From the NCBI RefSeq assembly GCF_023806635.1, contig NZ_JAMTDQ010000041.1, forward strand, positions 1 through 64,000: a stretch of DNA of 64,000 bases. Direction: 5' to 3'. The stretch is from Accumulibacter sp. (lineage in GTDB: Bacteria > Pseudomonadota > Gammaproteobacteria > Burkholderiales > Rhodocyclaceae). The position numbers and the translations under genes were made by a program. Every line of letters begins with the position of its first letter. Position 1 is the first letter of the stretch. A model generated the notes under the pieces. The model saw only the letters and a program-made list of their open reading frames with translations. It ran no database searches and was not told the DNA's origin. Positions 13,241 through 27,554 of the stretch are shown here, piece after piece.

Positions 13241-14014
13241 TCATCGCTGCGGGTCGGGGCCGCCGGCAGCTGCAGCGCGGTAGCCGGCTTCGATTTCTTC
13301 GCCAACGACGTCGAAGATGCCACGCAGCCGCGGACTGAGGTTGGCGATCACCTGCGCCACGTCCATCATCGCCGGAACACGCAGGCCTCGGTGCTCGGCT
13401 GCTGCACCGATCTGCCGGTTGCCGATGCCCAAGTGATCGAGATGTCGGGACAGACGCGGCTCAACGAGAAGGAAGAGCGTATCCAGTCGATGGCGCTCGG
13501 CAAGGACGAATACCGCCATGTAGAGACCAACGAGCAGATAGGGAAAGCGCGGCTGCTCGGCGGTACCGAAGCTGGAAGCGAGCAGTGTGCCGGGCGAACC
13601 TTCCTCGCCTCGCCGCCGTCGGTAGTCACGCACAATGGCCAGGCGGGATACCTCGGCCGTCCGATCGCGTCTGCCGGCGAGCCGATCCATCAGCACACGG
13701 TCCAGCGTATCGCCACAGGTCAACTCGAATGGCAGGCGCTGACTGGCATCGTCCCCGCGGCCGAGAACCAGGCGCACGCAGCCGGCAAGCCGGCCGGACT
13801 GCCGGCTGCGGGCAAGGCAATGCAGCGAGTGCGCGTCGTAGTCATCCGTCTCGAGCGCATCGCTCCGCCGCTCCTCCCAGCCGAGATCCTCGCAATAGAC
13901 CTGATGCCGCAGGCGAAAGGTCTGCTCCTGCTGTTCCCTGCTCAGCGCCGGCAGCATCTCGAAATACTTGCTGAAACCGGCGCCGGTATCGAAGGGGTCG
14001 GGAAGACCGCTCAT
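13241..14014 (-). CDS. PEP-CTERM/exosortase system-associated acyltransferase
   Basis: A 257-residue member of the acyltransferase family that co-occurs with exosortases, structurally related to autoinducer synthases. Diagnostic blocks: TFRLRHQVYCEDLGW near the N-terminus, YDAHSLHCLARSRQSGRLAG, and AEVSRLAIVRDYRRRR. The true substrate is unknown; by family logic it would transfer an acyl group to an amino acid-like acceptor or to an exported protein or polymer. Two PEP-CTERM proteins are encoded about 5 kb away, but no exosortase is in the window. It is the second gene of a leftward four-gene run. Confidence 0.85.
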   Translation of the reverse strand: MSGLPDPFDTGAGFSKYFEMLPALSREQQEQTFRLRHQVYCEDLGWEERRSDALETDDYDAHSLHCLARSRQSGRLAGCVRLVLGRGDDASQRLPFELTCGDTLDRVLMDRLAGRRDRTAEVSRLAIVRDYRRRRGEEGSPGTLLASSFGTAEQPRFPYLLVGLYMAVFVLAERHRLDTLFLLVEPRLSRHLDHLGIGNRQIGAAAEHRGLRVPAMMDVAQVIANLSPRLRGIFDVVGEEIEAGYRAAAAGGPDPQR

Positions 14015-14123
14015 CGCCGATCGCCGCCGCCGAGAACGAAGAACCGCCTCGCCCCGTGAAGCAATCGCCACGCGGCAAGCCGGCGAACGGCCGTCAGGGA
14101 GCACTTGTTGCCATCATAGCGGC

Positions 14124-14990
14124 TCACGGCCGTCCTGCCCGTTGCTGTGGCGGCGCCTCTCCCGGCAGCAACCTGTCCGAAAGCGCCTCCTGATCATCAC
14201 CGACCAGAAAATACCGGTAGAGGCTCCTGCCGGCAGCCGGATCGTTCTTCCTGCCGCCGTAGAGTTCGATCTGCCGCGCCGCCACCTCATAGTCGAGACG
14301 CAGCAGCACCGCTGGCGCGTTGACCCGTGGGCAGTGCCGCTGCTCGCCAATACAGACGAAGTTGGCTCGACTCACGTAGTAGTCGACATGTCGCGGGTTC
14401 ACCTCGATGATCGCATCGGTGAAGCCCTCTGCTCTGGCACAGGTGTAGAAGACATTCATCAGTGCGGCGACGACCTTTCGCGAATCCACGAAGCCACGAT
14501 CGATCGCCAGCCTGCTGTACTCGACCAGCCGCCGTCCCTCCCTTCGCAGTCGATCCAACTCGGCGGGATAGAGCTCATCCGCCAGCAGTCCGCCGGGGCC
14601 ATCGAAACGCAGGGTCGCCGTACCGACCGGCAAGCCATCATTTCCGTAGACCAGACCGGTGATCGTCAGCGCTCCCTCCTTACGGGCCAATGTCGCATCA
14701 CCGCTCAGCTTGTAGCCTCGCCAGCCGTACATCTTCTCGACCAACACGGTCGCTGACCGGCGACGTTCCGGACTGCTGCCCGCCAGCCGCAACTTGAAAC
14801 GCTCACGCTCCACCCGGGAAACGTGATCAGCCGCCAGCGACGGGCGCTCGAACGACATCGGCCGCGTCCGGTCCATGACCGAAAACTCCATGACCGTCTT
14901 CTGGATGTCGCTGGGCATGGGACCAGTGCTCGCGGGCGCCATCTGGCGTCCGATTCCCAACGTCTCACCCAGTCGTCGAATCCACTTCAC
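14124..14990 (-). CDS. FeeM-like N-acyl amino acid synthase / GNAT-type acyltransferase
   Basis: A 288-residue protein. Residues about 60-230 match the N-acyl amino acid synthase FeeM fold: RFKLRLAGS at the start, then VEYSRLAIDRGF, the long helix, and DAIIEVNPRHVDYYVSRANF (the H-x2-YY element). The GTG at 14990 is favoured over an upstream ATG at 15053 because GGAGGAGG sits nine bases before it. FeeM-type enzymes join acyl groups from acyl carrier protein to amino acids. Together with the next gene it gives two acyl-transfer enzymes of the same broad fold side by side, heading a probable operon. Confidence 0.78.
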   Translation of the reverse strand: MKWIRRLGETLGIGRQMAPASTGPMPSDIQKTVMEFSVMDRTRPMSFERPSLAADHVSRVERERFKLRLAGSSPERRRSATVLVEKMYGWRGYKLSGDATLARKEGALTITGLVYGNDGLPVGTATLRFDGPGGLLADELYPAELDRLRREGRRLVEYSRLAIDRGFVDSRKVVAALMNVFYTCARAEGFTDAIIEVNPRHVDYYVSRANFVCIGEQRHCPRVNAPAVLLRLDYEVAARQIELYGGRKNDPAAGRSLYRYFLVGDDQEALSDRLLPGEAPPQQRAGRP

Positions 14991-15240
14991 GCGTTGCTGC
15001 CTCCTCCGGTCACGGAGATCGGATGCTCGCCCGGCGCAGTCTCTCGCAGCCACACCGCTCCGGGCACCCGAGGCTCGCGGTTCTCAGGCCATGTCAAGAG
15101 AGGCACCGATCCGCCCAGATGCAAGATGGATTGCCACCGGCAGCAGCTCCGCACCGCAGCTTGGTCACGACGCCCACCCGTTTCGGCAAACTCTCGCACA
15201 AAAGCCGCTCGCAGGCAAGACTCCCTCGAAGAAGGCAGCC
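14991..15240. other. Intergenic region upstream of the FeeM-like gene (250 bp)
   Basis: No supported gene. It contains the ribosome site of the leftward FeeM-like gene at its left edge and presumably that operon's promoter. The right edge meets the first copy of a diverged direct repeat. Confidence 0.4.
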
Positions 15241-19445: not shown

Positions 19446-19463
19446 TGTCAGATTCTTTTACAC
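19446..19463 (+). promoter_or_regulatory. Shared 18-bp upstream element, copy 1 (candidate activator site)
   Basis: TGTCAGATTCTTTTACAC, identical at 15 of 18 positions to the element at 20834-20851 before the second PEP-CTERM gene. It is partly palindromic (TGT at one end, ACA at the other). It lies 85 bases upstream of a sigma-54 promoter, as expected for an enhancer-binding-protein site such as that of PrsR. The regulator is inferred. Confidence 0.55.
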
Positions 19464-19548
19464 CTGCGTCGCCTGCAGCGGGACGAGCGCCCCGCCGGAA
19501 AGCTGATTATTCCATAAAACCATTGCCCTACAATTTTCCGACCATATC

Positions 19549-19564
19549 TGGCCTGTTTCTTGCT
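19549..19564 (+). promoter_or_regulatory. Sigma-54 (-24/-12) promoter of PEP-CTERM gene 1
   Basis: TGGCCTGTTTCTTGCT fits the RpoN consensus TGGCAC-N5-TTGCT, with the required GG-N10-GC spacing. The start codon follows about 50 bases later with an AGGAGA ribosome site. RpoN with PrsK/PrsR control is known for PEP-CTERM genes in related bacteria. Confidence 0.8.
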
Positions 19565-19613
19565 TCGTCGATAACGCATACTTATCGATGCGACCACCTC
19601 AGGAGAAATTTCA

Positions 19614-20639
19614 ATGAAGGCTTCCAGAATCAAACTGCTCTCCGCAGCCGTGGCTGTGGGATTGGCGCCGGCGGTCGTGCACGCAGCGCCGGTGAAGGTC
19701 AACTTCTACAACGATGGCGTCACGGCTGCCGGCGTTGCCCAGTTCGACTGGGCGCCAGCGAACGTGATGGCGCAAGGCGGCAACCAGGCTTTCGCCAACT
19801 GGCTCAACTCCGGTGGCGCTTGCCCGAACAACGGATGTGACTTCACGGTCTACGCCCAGGGCCGCCTGCGCGGCCTTGCCAACAGCGCCAACGCCGCCAT
19901 CCCGACGCCCGGACTGGATGTCGGGTACGAGGTGACCTTCATGATGGCGTTCCAGGAGCGCGTCACCACTGGTATCTCGGCTGGTGGCAACAACGTCGCT
20001 CTCTTCAGCTTCCTGCCGGGCGGCACCAACTACTTCAAGATGTATTACGACACCCTCGGTGGTGGCACGGTGAAGTCGAACGACCTCGCGGGTACCGGCT
20101 TCCATGATGGCGATCTCGTCTTCGACGGAACCGTGGCGCCACAGGGCGCCTTCGTCTCGAACTTCGCGACCACTGCGAACATCACGCCGATTGGCGGCGC
20201 CAATTCGACCACGCCTCCGGCGTGGGGTGCCCAGACGACGGTCAACGGTGCTGGCGCGAGTTCAGCGCTCAACCTTGCGGCCACCGGCGGGCAGACGACT
20301 CCCGAAGGCGATGCCTTCTTCCCGAACTTCCAGATCACCTCGTTCCTGATGGACAACATCAGCCAGAATCTGCCCTTCACCACTGTCGACCCGGCACTGC
20401 AGTTCGATGACGTGATGAACAATGCCATCTTCGCCACCCCGGCGCAGATCGGCCTGTTGAACGGCGGCACGAGTTTCGACCCCCTCAGCGGCCAGTGGCG
20501 CGTCTCCGGCCCGTCGATCATCTTCCAGACGGACCCGAACGGCCCGATCAATGGCCGCGACCTTCCCGAGCCGGCCTCAATCCTGCTCCTCGGCATGGGT
20601 CTGGCAGCTCTGCGGGCGAACCGCAAGCGCGAGTCCTGA
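19614..20639 (+). CDS. PEP-CTERM sorting domain protein, paralogue 1
   Basis: A 341-residue exported protein. A signal peptide covers residues 1-24 (SAAVAVGLAPAVVHA then AP). The C-terminus LPEPASILLLGMGLAALRAN with a basic tail is a classic PEP-CTERM sorting signal: Pro-Glu-Pro, membrane helix, Arg/Lys end. Exosortase would cleave it and release or anchor the protein at the outer surface. The middle is rich in Asn, Gly, Thr and Phe, with a close cysteine pair (CPNNGC) and no enzyme motif. It is a tandem duplicate of the next gene. Transcription is very likely from the sigma-54 promoter just upstream. A matrix or floc-related role is plausible but unproven. Confidence 0.92.
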   Translation: MKASRIKLLSAAVAVGLAPAVVHAAPVKVNFYNDGVTAAGVAQFDWAPANVMAQGGNQAFANWLNSGGACPNNGCDFTVYAQGRLRGLANSANAAIPTPGLDVGYEVTFMMAFQERVTTGISAGGNNVALFSFLPGGTNYFKMYYDTLGGGTVKSNDLAGTGFHDGDLVFDGTVAPQGAFVSNFATTANITPIGGANSTTPPAWGAQTTVNGAGASSALNLAATGGQTTPEGDAFFPNFQITSFLMDNISQNLPFTTVDPALQFDDVMNNAIFATPAQIGLLNGGTSFDPLSGQWRVSGPSIIFQTDPNGPINGRDLPEPASILLLGMGLAALRANRKRES

Positions 20640-20658
20640 GCCGCCGTACGCAACGCGG

Positions 20659-20686
20659 CTGGCGACGCCCCACGGGGCGTCGCCAG
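20659..20686 (+). terminator. Perfect 13-bp inverted repeat after PEP-CTERM gene 1
   Basis: CTGGCGACGCCCC and its exact complement separated by two bases, 19 bases after the stop codon. There is no T-run, so it may act as a Rho-assisted or attenuating hairpin or as an mRNA 3' stabiliser. Confidence 0.5.
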
Positions 20687-20833
20687 AGATGCGGGCACGG
20701 CCGCCGTCCTCGTTTCCCCTCCCACCTTCGGAAGCGTGGCCGAAGACCGGGCGTCACCGCTGTGTTGCTGGCGCGGCAGTGATCCAGTCGGGCTCGCGGC
20801 TGCCGATTGAGCCTGCGGTCACCCCACGGAAAG

Positions 20834-20851
20834 TGTCGGAATTTTTTACAC
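20834..20851 (+). promoter_or_regulatory. Shared 18-bp upstream element, copy 2 (candidate activator site)
   Basis: TGTCGGAATTTTTTACAC, 97 bases before the sigma-54 promoter of the second PEP-CTERM gene. Relative to copy 1 the spacing differs by 12 bases, close to one helical turn, so a bound activator would face the polymerase in the same way. Confidence 0.55.
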
Positions 20852-20948
20852 GCGCCCCTGAGGACGCCCTGCCGGGTTCCCTAGAGAAGCCCGAAAAATA
20901 GTTTTTCTTGCCGTTAAATCAAATTGTTGTTGAATTCATGCCGAGATG

Positions 20949-20964
20949 TGGCCCGATCCTTGCT
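20949..20964 (+). promoter_or_regulatory. Sigma-54 (-24/-12) promoter of PEP-CTERM gene 2
   Basis: TGGCCCGATCCTTGCT matches TGGCAC-N5-TTGCT with correct GG-N10-GC spacing, 51 bases before the start codon. Same arrangement as the first paralogue. Confidence 0.8.
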
Positions 20965-21015: not shown

Positions 21016-22038
21016 ATGACTGTTTCCAAGGTAAAACTTCTTTCCGCAGCGGTCGCTGTGGGCCTGTTGCCGGCGGCCGCGCAGGCCGCGCCGGTGAACG
21101 TAAACTTCTACAACGATGGTGTCTCGGCCACCGGCGTTGCCCAGTTCGACTGGGCTCCGTCGAACGTGATGGCTCAGGGCGGCAACCAGGCTTTCGCCAA
21201 CTGGGTCAACTCCGGTGGCGCCTGCCCGGCCAACAGCTGCGACTTCACGGTCTACGCCCAGGGCCGCCTGCGCGGCCTCGCCAATAGCGCCAACGGCGCG
21301 ATTGCGACACCAGGGCTCGACTCGGCTTACGAAGTCACCTTCGTGACCGCTTTCCAGGAGCGCATCACGACCGCGGTCTCCGCGGGCGGTGCCAACGTCG
21401 CGCTGTTGAGCTTCCTGCCAGGGGGCACGAACTACTTCAAGATGTACTATGACACCTTGGGTGGTGGCACCGTGCAGTCGAACGACCTGGCGGGCACGGG
21501 CTTCCATGATGGAGACAAGGTGTTCGACGGCACCGTCGGCCCGCAGGGTGGCTTCATCTCCAGTTTTTCCACCACTGGCTTGGTCGCTCCGATCGGCGGT
21601 GCGAACGCGACGACGCCTCCGGCGTGGGCCGGTCAGACCTCCGTCACGGGTGCCGGTGCCAGTTCCGCCCTCAACCTCGCGGTTACCGGCGGGCAGACGA
21701 CACCCGAAGGTGATGCTTTCTTCCCGAATTTCCTGATCACCTCGTTCCTGCTCGACAACATCAGCCAGAACCTGCCCTTCACGACCGTTGATCCGGCACT
21801 GCAGTTCGACGACGTCATGAACAACGTCGTTTATGCCACCCCGGCTCAGATCGGTCCAGTGAATGGCGGTTCGTCCTTCATTCCCGGCGTTGGCCTCGTC
21901 GCTTCCGGTCCGTCGATCATCTTCCAGACCGATCCGAATGGCCCGATCGATGGCCGCAGTCTTCCCGAACCGGGCTCGCTGCTGCTCCTCGGCATGGGCC
22001 TCGCGGCCCTTCGCGCGGGCAAGAGCAGAAAGGCCTGA
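21016..22038 (+). CDS. PEP-CTERM sorting domain protein, paralogue 2
   Basis: A 340-residue exported protein nearly co-linear with the preceding paralogue: same signal peptide type (SAAVAVGLLPAAAQA then AP), same cysteine pair (CPANSC), and the shared blocks FLPGGTNYFKMYYDTLGGGT and NISQNLPFTTVDPALQFDD. It ends LPEPGSLLLLGMGLAALRAG plus a basic tail, the PEP-CTERM signal. The ATG at 21016, after GGGAGAAAATCGTC, begins the signal peptide; a longer in-frame extension to 20908 would run through the promoter and is rejected. It has its own sigma-54 promoter and a strong terminator, so the two copies are separate transcription units kept under the same control. Confidence 0.92.
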   Translation: MTVSKVKLLSAAVAVGLLPAAAQAAPVNVNFYNDGVSATGVAQFDWAPSNVMAQGGNQAFANWVNSGGACPANSCDFTVYAQGRLRGLANSANGAIATPGLDSAYEVTFVTAFQERITTAVSAGGANVALLSFLPGGTNYFKMYYDTLGGGTVQSNDLAGTGFHDGDKVFDGTVGPQGGFISSFSTTGLVAPIGGANATTPPAWAGQTSVTGAGASSALNLAVTGGQTTPEGDAFFPNFLITSFLLDNISQNLPFTTVDPALQFDDVMNNVVYATPAQIGPVNGGSSFIPGVGLVASGPSIIFQTDPNGPIDGRSLPEPGSLLLLGMGLAALRAGKSRKA

Positions 22039-22067
22039 CAGCGCGATGGCGTTGCTGCCAAGCAAGG

Positions 22068-22096
22068 CGGGGGCCATCAGGCCCCCGTTTTTTTTT
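22068..22096 (+). terminator. Intrinsic terminator after PEP-CTERM gene 2
   Basis: An 8-bp perfect stem (CGGGGGCC / GGCCCCCG) with loop ATCA, followed by nine T residues, 30 bases after the stop codon. Textbook Rho-independent terminator. Confidence 0.95.
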
Positions 22097-24727: not shown

Positions 24728-25801
24728 CTAGCCGGCTCGGACCAGAAGTTTGTCCAGCGGCAGCCGCAGCGAGCGCGCCCTGGCAGCCGAGCCAAAGCCA
24801 AGTCGGCCCATGAAGATCGCTCGTCCTGCGTGCTCCACGCCAATCGTCTCCTGCAGCCGGGCGGTGAGTTGCACGGCCTGGCCCCACAATGCAGGCGCCA
24901 CCGAGAATCGCACACCGGCGCGAACATAGGCGGCAAACACCAGCGGCGTGTAGGCGGGTTGAAGCTGCAGGCCGTGATGTGTGGCCGTAAGCCAGAATCG
25001 CTGGACTTTCCGGCCGCCTGCAACGAAATGCTCGACAGCCTGCGGCTCGTCCCGGGCCACGATGACGAAATGCGCAGCGCAGGCCAGTGCCGGAATCAGG
25101 TCAAGCTGAATCCGGGGCGCCAGCGTGCCCGCCATGAAGCGATTCAGAAAGTCGACTCGCCCCCAACTCTGCATGGCCCATCTCATTGCCCGCGTCGTGA
25201 CCGGGTCGAGGCCGAGCGCCTGGTCGGGAATGCGGTCTTCGGAGAACCGCGCGCCCCATTCGATGATGTCGCGGTGCACCGGGTACGCCTCCGGCATCGT
25301 CAGCCTGATCTGCGCATTGGCAAACAGCAGTCGGGCCATTCGCAGACGATCCGCGAAGCATTCCAGCCACAAGACGCTGTGATCCGGCCCGACGGCAGCC
25401 TCGAGCGCCGATTTCTGTTCGGCTCGCAATGGCCTGGTGCTCAGTGGGCGACGCTGGACGCTGCGCACCCGGATCGAATCCATCAACGGGTCGGCGCGGA
25501 CCCCGGCGCCCGCCTGCAAATGGACGTCGAACGTGGGCCGCGTGTCGGGCAGGTGCATGCGTCTTTGCACCGAGACCACGAATCCGGAGCCACTGGCGGC
25601 GATGGTGATGGTTTCGAGGAGAGCGCCGAGCGATACCTGACTGGCGCGTCCAGAAAAATCATAGACGCAATGATCACGGGTGTCGAAACCATGGATCACG
25701 GCATGCTCTGGCCCCACCAGCTCAAAGCGCCAAGGCTGGGTATTGTCGCCGCTGGGCGCCCAGCGCGCGAAATCGAGGATATCGGCGAGTGCGCCCATCA
25801 A
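24728..25801 (-). CDS. Nitroreductase-family protein (Acg/MoeY-like)
   Basis: A 357-residue flavin-fold protein. The N-terminal ILDFARWAPSGDNTQPWRFE (A-P-S-x2-N-x-Q-P-W) is the nitroreductase FMN-binding signature, and the remaining fold is the long two-lobed type seen in Acg and in the C-terminal half of actinobacterial MoeY. The actual substrate is unknown; some relatives store FMN or act with E1-like enzymes. It is 153 bases downstream of a ThiF-type gene on the same strand. In MoeY the two activities are fused in one chain, which strengthens the idea that they work together here. Confidence 0.8.
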   Translation of the reverse strand: MMGALADILDFARWAPSGDNTQPWRFELVGPEHAVIHGFDTRDHCVYDFSGRASQVSLGALLETITIAASGSGFVVSVQRRMHLPDTRPTFDVHLQAGAGVRADPLMDSIRVRSVQRRPLSTRPLRAEQKSALEAAVGPDHSVLWLECFADRLRMARLLFANAQIRLTMPEAYPVHRDIIEWGARFSEDRIPDQALGLDPVTTRAMRWAMQSWGRVDFLNRFMAGTLAPRIQLDLIPALACAAHFVIVARDEPQAVEHFVAGGRKVQRFWLTATHHGLQLQPAYTPLVFAAYVRAGVRFSVAPALWGQAVQLTARLQETIGVEHAGRAIFMGRLGFGSAARARSLRLPLDKLLVRAG

Positions 25802-25954: not shown

Positions 25955-26812
25955 TCAACCCGAACGCCGCCGCCCAAGAGCGATCATCAACCGCAGGATC
26001 GGGTTGGCGTTGCCGCCCGGGCGCCAAGTAGTGACCGCCCTGTTGCGATAGGCGTCGAAATGCACGCCCCGTGGGGCGGCAATGATCTTCCCGCGACCGA
26101 GCAGGATCTTCAGCGCCTCGCTCGCCGCGACGCCGGCGCAGAGCGAACAGCCCATCGGCGTCGAAGGGCCCCGACGCCCCTTGAAGTCGATGGTGCTCGG
26201 ATCGACGAGATAGCTCTGCTGCAAGCGTGCCGGAGCCAGTCCGACAAAGAACCGCAGCCCCATTTCCTCTTCCGAGCAACCGTTCCAGCGGAAGTACTGT
26301 TCGAAGGTCATCCCTCCGGGCATGAAGTTGAGCAGGGCAGCTCCCATGCCGAGTGGCGCCACCGTGATCGCCGGCAGGCCGTGTCGGGCACAGCCGTCGA
26401 AAACGGCCTTGCGTGCGGCAAAGGCGTAGAAGTCGAGACCGTCCACGTAAACGTCAACGCCGCGCAGGAACTCGTCGACGTTGTCATCGTGAACCCCCTG
26501 ATCGAAAGTCTCAAACTCGATTTCGGGATTGATGTCGTGCGCCAGCGCAATCAGCACATCCACCTTGCGTCTGCCCAGGGTGCTCATCGTCGCGCCGGCC
26601 TGCCGATTGAAGTTGGCCAGATCGAAGCGGTCGAAGTCAGCAACATGGAAACGCCCAACCCCCAGGCGAGCCAGTGTCAGCAGATGTGATCCGCCGACCC
26701 CTCCGAGGCCGGCGATGGCGACACGCTTGCCGCGCAGGAGTTGCTGCTCGGCACGCGTCAGCCAGCCAATATTTCGTGAGAAAGCCTCTTCGTAGTCGAA
26801 TTCCTTGCTCAC
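25955..26812 (-). CDS. ThiF/MoeB-family E1-like adenylyltransferase
   Basis: A 285-residue E1-like enzyme. The nucleotide motif GLGGVG is at residues 35-40 and DFDRFDLANFNRQ at 59-71, giving the conserved Asp, Asn, Arg and Gln of ATP binding and adenylation. Only one CxxC (Cys222-Cys225) is seen, so the usual four-cysteine zinc site looks incomplete. Enzymes of this kind adenylate the C-terminus of a ubiquitin-like or peptide substrate. No such substrate is encoded nearby; the nearest ubiquitin-like domain in the window is in the Mut7-C protein near 55.9 kb. The GTG at 26812 is chosen; a frame extension further upstream has no similarity. Confidence 0.83.
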   Translation of the reverse strand: MSKEFDYEEAFSRNIGWLTRAEQQLLRGKRVAIAGLGGVGGSHLLTLARLGVGRFHVADFDRFDLANFNRQAGATMSTLGRRKVDVLIALAHDINPEIEFETFDQGVHDDNVDEFLRGVDVYVDGLDFYAFAARKAVFDGCARHGLPAITVAPLGMGAALLNFMPGGMTFEQYFRWNGCSEEEMGLRFFVGLAPARLQQSYLVDPSTIDFKGRRGPSTPMGCSLCAGVAASEALKILLGRGKIIAAPRGVHFDAYRNRAVTTWRPGGNANPILRLMIALGRRRSG

Positions 26813-26999
26813 TGCCTGAGCGGCCCCTCTTTCCCCGGGAAGAGCCGGCACTCTAGCACCATTGACCGAGGATGAAAACCAGGAAGCCGGCCGCCCCGGC
26901 CGCCGTGCACCACCGGCGGTCGAAACATGCGGCAAACGACCCGAACACAGGGTACCATTGCCTCGCCCCCGCCACTGACCCAGCGAAGAGGATCGCGTA

Positions 27000-27554
27000 A
27001 TGATCGTAACCCCCACCGGCATCGCAGACGTGCTGCTCATCGAACCCAGGGTGTTCGCCGACCAGCGCGGGCACTTTTTCGAGAGCTTCAACGCACGCGC
27101 CTTCGCCGAGGCTACGGGCCTCGCCGTCGAGTTCGTGCAGGACAATCAATCGCTGTCGACGCGCGGCGTGCTGCGTGGGCTGCATTACCAGCTTCCTCCG
27201 AAAGCGCAGGGCAAGCTGGTTCGGGTCGTGCACGGGGCCGTCTTCGACGTCACAGTCGACCTGCGCCACGGATCGGCGACCTTTGGCCGCTGGGAAGGGC
27301 ATCGGCTGAGCGCAGAAAACAGGAAACAGCTCTGGATTCCAGCGGGCCTGGCGCACGGTTTCCTGGTGCTGTCGGAGACCGCCGAGTTCCTCTACAAGAC
27401 GACCGACTACTACTCGCCGGAGCACGAACGAGCCCTGCTCTGGAACGATCCGCAGCTCGGCATCGAATGGCCGCTGCAGGGCAATCCGGTCGTCGCCGCC
27501 AAGGATGCCGCAGCACCGCCGCTGAGCGGAGCAGAGCCTTTCCCGTCTGGCTGA
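27000..27554 (+). CDS. rfbC: dTDP-4-dehydrorhamnose 3,5-epimerase
   Basis: A 184-residue cupin-fold RmlC. It converts dTDP-4-keto-6-deoxyglucose to dTDP-4-keto-L-rhamnose. Clear family blocks: FFESFNARAF, GVLRGLHYQLPPKAQGKLVR (active-site His), VDLRHGSATFG, the catalytic Tyr region FLYKTTDYYSPEHE, and AKDAAAPPL at the end. The start follows an AGAGGA ribosome site. It stands alone here; rmlA, B and D are not in the window, yet a likely dTDP-L-rhamnose 4-epimerase lies 3.6 kb upstream, so the two may serve one glycan. Confidence 0.93.
   Translation: MIVTPTGIADVLLIEPRVFADQRGHFFESFNARAFAEATGLAVEFVQDNQSLSTRGVLRGLHYQLPPKAQGKLVRVVHGAVFDVTVDLRHGSATFGRWEGHRLSAENRKQLWIPAGLAHGFLVLSETAEFLYKTTDYYSPEHERALLWNDPQLGIEWPLQGNPVVAAKDAAAPPLSGAEPFPSG

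Follow-up and report, generated by a model that had tools for sequence, protein, structure and literature searches.

Tandem PEP-CTERM genes of an Accumulibacter with predicted PrsR/RpoN promoters, helically phased spacers and, in many relatives, IHF-like sites

Two tandem genes for PEP-CTERM proteins lie on the plus strand of a 64 kb stretch of an Accumulibacter genome, hereafter the window, and each is preceded by the same pair of short elements. Does each gene have a sigma-54 promoter of its own, with an upstream activator site held in helical phase, or are the elements alike merely because the genes are copies of one another? Gene 1 (19614..20639) encodes 341 amino acids and gene 2 (21016..22038) 340, with 80% amino-acid identity between the two proteins. 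That a PEP-CTERM gene follows both promoters was confirmed by PF07589 (22.8 bits for gene 1, cut-off 20.7; 21.4 bits for gene 2) and by TIGR02595 (19.6 bits, cut-off 16; 16.9 bits for gene 2), with all four scores above cut-off.

Upstream of gene 1, the 18-mer TGTCAGATTCTTTTACAC (19446..19463, plus strand) precedes a sigma-54 -24/-12 box, TGGCCTGTTTCTTGCT (19549..19564, plus strand). The corresponding elements of gene 2, also on the plus strand, are TGTCGGAATTTTTTACAC (20834..20851) and TGGCCCGATCCTTGCT (20949..20964). The 18-mers are identical at 15 of 18 positions, and the gaps from the end of the 18-mer to the start of the box are 85 for gene 1 and 97 for gene 2, as claimed in a preliminary description of this DNA. 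The GG-N10-GC spacing given there is exact in both boxes; the box itself, written as TGGC-N5-TTGC, has the form TGGC-N7-TTGC. The unusual part of these promoters is the 18-mer, whereas the sigma-54 box alone is weak evidence. A merged 18-mer pattern with up to three mismatches matches the window only at these two places (mean in shuffles, 0.03), while TGGC-N7-TTGCW has five exact matches in the window, and 50 with up to one mismatch against 28.6 in shuffles.

No sigma-70-like promoter was found between 19000 and 22300 by simple consensus scan. A strong 12-bp hairpin without a T run (20659..20686, plus strand; z -3.36), absent from the output of the terminator scan, stands 3' of gene 1 and may mark the boundary between the transcription units of the two genes. 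The one terminator-like stem with a T run that the scan did find lies 3' of gene 2 (22064..22091, plus strand), and it is weak evidence, because shuffles of the region average 3.0 such stems. Hairpin and stem together fit two separate transcription units, short of proof.

The promoter type has been described before. Haft et al. (2006; PMC1569441) reported that 99 of 167 proteobacterial PEP-CTERM genes are preceded by a 17-nt motif 1 ending in TTTACA and a sigma-54 motif 2, with a spacer of mean 62.8, SD 10.6 and range 32-92. They also named PrsK, PrsR and PrsT, and put PrsR forward as the binder of motif 1. Compared with this description in words, the sequences at 19446-19462 and 20834-20850 are both 17-nt motifs of this kind, and the -24 GG/-12 GC box, the PEP-CTERM gene downstream and the presence of PrsK, PrsR and PrsT in the genome are likewise the same. 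Because both motifs were described in 2006, the window adds new members to a class that is already in the literature. The gap of gene 1 falls inside the published range; that of gene 2 lies just outside, beyond the maximum of 92, but within a cluster of gaps at 93-97 in relatives. What the activator recognises is probably the 17-nt inverted repeat TGTCRG-N5-TTTACA. NtrC sites have a 6-5-6 half-site geometry, and motif 1 is alike.

One promoter of this type has a mapped start. For pepA of Aquincola tertiaricarbonis, the parts of PMC9850573 available to us report a mapped -24/-12 start, dependence on RpoN1 and a predicted enhancer upstream. The likeness to the window is an RpoN-type PEP-CTERM promoter with a predicted enhancer sequence upstream. 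The proteins differ: those of the window score 38.3 and 43.3 bits with the PepA family model NF033554, below its curated cut-off of 80, and are therefore not PepA by this model. A contig search, which reaches close relatives only and may omit records near this genome, confirmed no relative of the gene 1 protein, and neither protein had a relative at E 1e-20 among 27 other genomes of the genus.

If the 18-mer is an activator site, it should recur near other PEP-CTERM genes of the genome (4.47 Mb, 119 contigs), as the preliminary description had pointed out. It does so, and it stands beside sigma-54 boxes at those genes as well. TIGR02595 returned 38 PEP-CTERM candidates, 35 of them above cut-off; two of the 38, both below cut-off, were left out of the upstream fetch. 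Motif 1, with up to two mismatches, was found upstream of 19 of the 35 genes, in one case via the gene in front and in two cases with no good box behind it. The other 16 had no motif 1 in the upstream DNA examined. TGTCGG-N5-TTTACAC with up to two mismatches occurs 62 times in the genome against 33 times for a reversed control, so that many single matches at this stringency are due to chance; TGTCNG-N5-TTTACAC gave seven matches, and its reversed control none. A second copy of motif 1 upstream (within 150 nt, up to three mismatches) was present at only two of 29 loci and is therefore not general. An inverted, degenerate copy just before the box of gene 1, spotted by eye, has about five mismatches and was dropped.

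Scanning 39 loci of the genome, 33 fetched for PEP-CTERM genes and six added after good boxes had been noticed, yielded 21 promoters with a good box: 15 at PEP-CTERM loci, and six before genes without a visible PEP-CTERM tail, a fraction that is not an unbiased share, because those six loci were added after their boxes had been seen. The six combinations of motif 1 and box with no PEP-CTERM tail seen are C20:25382 (gap 51), C22:17864 (62), C28:6802 (63), C29:7046 (84), C30:7038 (63) and C51:8896 (72); the reading frame at C22:17864 continues past the fetched DNA. Their genes are candidate members of a wider PrsR regulon, which may extend to genes that lack a PEP-CTERM tail.

The genome encodes the proteins that such promoters would use. 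PrsR (TIGR02915, 728 bits), PrsK (TIGR02916, 852 bits) and PrsT (TIGR02917, 895 bits) all score above cut-off and form one cluster together with the sugar transferase EpsB. There is one RpoN and one IHF-alpha above cut-off. Aligned over 452 residues, the PrsR protein has 100% identity to its Candidatus Accumulibacter adjunctus counterpart, and it has 97% to the one of Ca. A. conexus, so that the organism, judged by this one protein, is probably a Ca. Accumulibacter.

The link between the motif pair and PrsR extends across the family. We surveyed 395 genomes for motif 1 followed by the box at a gap of 30-90 and for a PrsR above cut-off, and took the counts from the full per-genome table of matches. 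The pair was present in 207 genomes and PrsR in 203; 190 had both, 17 the pair only, 13 PrsR only and 175 neither, which leaves 30 discordant genomes (Fisher p 7e-74, with related genomes treated as independent). A reversed-pattern control gave ten matches over all 395 genomes. Ten of the 17 genomes with the pair only hold a single pair, and seven are less than 90% complete. Downstream of 148 fetched pairs, a simple and heuristic C-terminus pattern classified 110 proteins as PEP-CTERM-like and 31 as not, with seven undecided.

Three genomes, G036, G261 and G393, are real exceptions to this link. They are at least 99% complete and carry five, three and three motif pairs, respectively, with no PrsR above cut-off.

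The 12-base difference between the gaps of gene 1 and gene 2 had been read as close to one helical turn, as expected if an activator must face the polymerase in the same way at both promoters. The two promoters are not independent evidence for this, because the genes are tandem paralogues. A broader sample came from 45 genomes of genera other than that of the window, chosen for having a pair in the family survey. A pair search with gaps of 40-100 found 181 pairs, and the spacing lattice was computed on the 150 listed, from 28 genera. The gaps cluster at 50-53, 59-64, 71-74, 82-85 and 93-97, that is, near 51, 62, 73, 84 and 95, and just five of the 150 (47, 57, 69, 76 and 87) fall between clusters. 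A period of 11.05 bp fits best (10.9-11.25 in a bootstrap over genera), closer to 11 than to 10.5, with an R of 0.78 against a maximum of 0.35 in 1000 jittered sets. Pairs without a PEP-CTERM gene downstream also follow the lattice (R 0.71, n=31).

In the genome of the window, 19 of 21 gaps are no more than 2 bp away from this lattice (9.5 expected, p 2e-5). The gaps of 85 and 97 are 1.0 and 2.0 bp off a lattice centre, and their difference is about one whole turn. A long-gap search in 28 species of the genus, with one match in the reversed control, gave 121 gaps, all listed and used. With shared ancestry uncorrected, 101 of the 107 gaps up to 100 are within 2.1 bp of the lattice; among the 14 gaps above 100, nine are within this distance and five are off. 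Three of these 14, all of which were counted, are at 134, and for two of them the stretch of 80 letters that was inspected breaks off at the start of a nearer TGGC, so that their boxes may be second, chance boxes. The helical-turn argument is thus backed by gaps from 28 other genera as well as from the own genus, and the lattice points to activator and polymerase sites that stay on one face of the helix, often with a probable DNA-bending site between them.

Natural helical phasing is already known from another sigma-54 system. In the Vibrio qrr enhancers, which use LuxO and sigma-54, the loops of 61 natural enhancers fall into length classes spaced by about 11 bp, according to the parts of PMC4740811 available to us, which also name a class of IHF-assisted sigma-54 enhancers. 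The qrr enhancers have tandem LuxO sites and loops of about 80-120 bp, whereas PEP-CTERM promoters have mostly one motif 1, gaps of 50-97 bp and IHF-like sites. For PEP-CTERM promoters, we found no earlier report of helical phasing in the literature as far as it was accessible in full or in part. In the main text of PMC1569441, a term search found no mention of IHF, and the word 'helical' solely in the title of a reference.

The spacer between motif 1 and the box appears to hold a further element in many of the promoters. An exact match to the IHF consensus, WATCAANNNNTTR, is found in the spacer of gene 2, where AATCAAATTGTTG (20917..20929, plus strand) starts 65 after motif 1 and ends 19 before the box. 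The best IHF-like site in the spacer of gene 1 has two mismatches and is out of register. To compare the family, 148 of the 150 spacers were fetched (two from G150, similar to promoters of G067, were omitted), and one redundant spacer was dropped, which left 147. The exact consensus occurs in 21 of these (dinucleotide shuffles, mean 1.0, maximum 5), and a site with up to one mismatch in 79 (shuffles 16.3, maximum 24). The enrichment is weak in the genome of the window itself, with four of 21 spacers at up to one mismatch (permuted consensus strings, mean 1.03, maximum 5) and 17 of 21 at up to two (mean 8.17, maximum 16). IHF cannot be general, because gene 1 has no convincing site and 68 of the 147 family spacers have no site with up to one mismatch.

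The IHF-like sites also have preferred positions, recorded for the best site on each strand of each spacer at up to one mismatch. Of the 48 minus-strand sites, 25 begin 29-31 bases after motif 1 and nine at 39-42, and 33 have their end 17-20 bases before the box. Of the 47 plus-strand sites, 15 begin 42-43 bases after motif 1 and five at 53, and 21 have their end 5-8 bases before the box. At a period of 11.05 bp, the minus-strand sites are in register with both neighbours (R 0.68 and 0.69), and the register of the plus-strand sites is loose (R 0.53 and 0.43). In IHF-assisted sigma-54 enhancers of the NtrC/NifA type, an activator site, an IHF site and a -24/-12 box are combined. The promoters studied here differ in that an exact IHF site is present in gene 2 only and not in gene 1, and in that the IHF-like sites across the family come in alternative placements with opposite orientation. 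In the available part of one of three papers that name both PEP-CTERM and integration host factor, the two are unconnected.

The two placements, observed among the family promoters L097-L244, have starts about 12 bp apart. They might produce the same bend direction.

How else could these patterns have arisen? The promoters of the window could be alike merely through tandem duplication, with motif and spacing functionless, as the tandem order of the genes and the identity of their proteins would allow. We regard this as very improbable. The spacers of the two genes have diverged so far that their alignment is unconvincing (local score 17, shuffled mean 13.2, equalled in 35 of 500 shuffles), and only 95 of 167 fourfold sites (57%) are identical, yet motif 1 (15 of 18 letters), the box (13 of 16) and the Shine-Dalgarno region are still alike, and the gap has changed by about one helical turn. 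Moreover, other PEP-CTERM genes of the genome are preceded by these elements too, which also occur in 28 further genera, and the genome-wide recurrence speaks against duplication as the full explanation. The lattice, in turn, could have been created by the search pattern or by common descent. The choice of boxes in the genome of the window did favour gaps near 62 on ties, promoters are common to related genomes, and the long-gap set of the genus is uncorrected for kinship. We nevertheless give this reading next to no credence: the pair-search pattern permits every gap in its range, and the reversed pattern found nothing in the 45 genomes where the true one found 181 pairs. Furthermore, 147 of the 148 spacers pass a crude redundancy test, and a sample of one pair per genus keeps a mean R of 0.83 (never below 0.66 in 1000 draws), where the null reaches 0.56 at most.

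The identity of the bound proteins leaves somewhat more room for alternatives. The conserved spacer sites could be another bending or AT-rich element (HU, H-NS or an intrinsic bend), given that the second half of the spacer is AT-rich in general and that 68 of the 147 promoters have no site with up to one mismatch. We consider this rather unlikely. Although the best of 300 permuted strings, which nearly copies the IHF consensus itself, reached 64 of the 147 spacers against 79, none of the 300 attained either IHF count, and the permuted strings averaged only 0.79 spacers at the exact level, with a maximum of 10. Among 39 occurrences of WATCAA in the spacers, TTR follows exactly four bases on in 23, against at most four at any other offset from 0 to 12, which is the two-part signature of IHF, and the register of the 48 minus-strand sites with both neighbours also argues for IHF. 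It is unlikely, too, that a sigma-54 activator other than PrsR binds motif 1 in this genome or in some of its relatives. Several further enhancer-binding proteins are encoded in the genome, where the PrsR model has eight additional strong matches below cut-off (289-346 bits), and 17 of the 395 genomes, G036, G261 and G393 among them, have the pair but no PrsR above cut-off. Against this stand the co-occurrence of pair and PrsR, even if its p-value counts kin genomes as independent, and the control of PEP-CTERM genes by PrsK-PrsR that is reported for Zoogloea resiniphila, according to the summary in PMC9012009.

The explanation that we prefer, and consider highly probable as a whole, is that gene 1 and gene 2 each have their own PrsR/RpoN promoter, one sigma-54 promoter of the known PEP-CTERM-box type per gene, with IHF taking part in many such promoters and the phase kept by selection. 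The sequences themselves show the elements and how these go together with PEP-CTERM genes and PrsR; they also show the lattice, and the enrichment and preferred positions of the IHF-consensus sites. From this we infer binding by PrsR and IHF, the need for phase and the signal. PrsR, an NtrC-type response regulator working with the kinase PrsK, would occupy motif 1 as a dimer, with TGTCRG-N5-TTTACA as its site. Between motif 1 and the -24/-12 box, the DNA would then bend or loop, with IHF helping in many promoters, and the AAA+ ring of PrsR would remodel the waiting RpoN polymerase at the box. Because the loop is just 50-97 bp long, PrsR and the polymerase, and the bend where present, would have to hold one rotational setting, and the spacer length would evolve by whole helical turns of about 11 bp. 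No binding test of PrsR was found in the available parts of PMC1569441, PMC9850573 and PMC9012009.

We also lean, with less confidence, towards a broader reading of the same data. PrsR-controlled promoters would be rigid enhancers of three parts: the activator site, the IHF bend and the sigma-54 box would all sit on one helical lattice of 11.05 bp, with spans from 50 to about 97 bp and mostly a single activator site. IHF would then act as a third, hidden regulator both of PEP-CTERM display and of floc formation, and a period longer than 10.5 would reflect the underwinding of the looped DNA in living cells.

Candidatus Accumulibacter is a main agent of biological phosphorus removal. The flocs that let activated sludge settle are reported to require PEP-CTERM proteins (PMC9012009). 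The promoter type was proposed in 2006 and has one member with a mapped start; the spacing rule and the IHF prediction make that proposal sharply testable. They also provide a better filter for finding the regulon, perhaps including genes without a PEP-CTERM tail.

Two further observations concern other genes of the window. A PEP-CTERM/exosortase system-associated acyltransferase (13241-14104, minus strand; TIGR03694, 239 bits, cut-off 112) lies about 5.5 kb from the gene pair. Three separate genes, all on the minus strand (14124-15053, 24728-25801 and 25955-27145), each match parts of PRK14851/PRK14852, which are large fused hypothetical proteins, so that the fused system seems to be split here. 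The gene at 24728-25801 is FMN oxidoreductase-like, the one at 25955-27145 is ThiF/E1-like, and the product of 14124-15053 is presumably acyltransferase-like.
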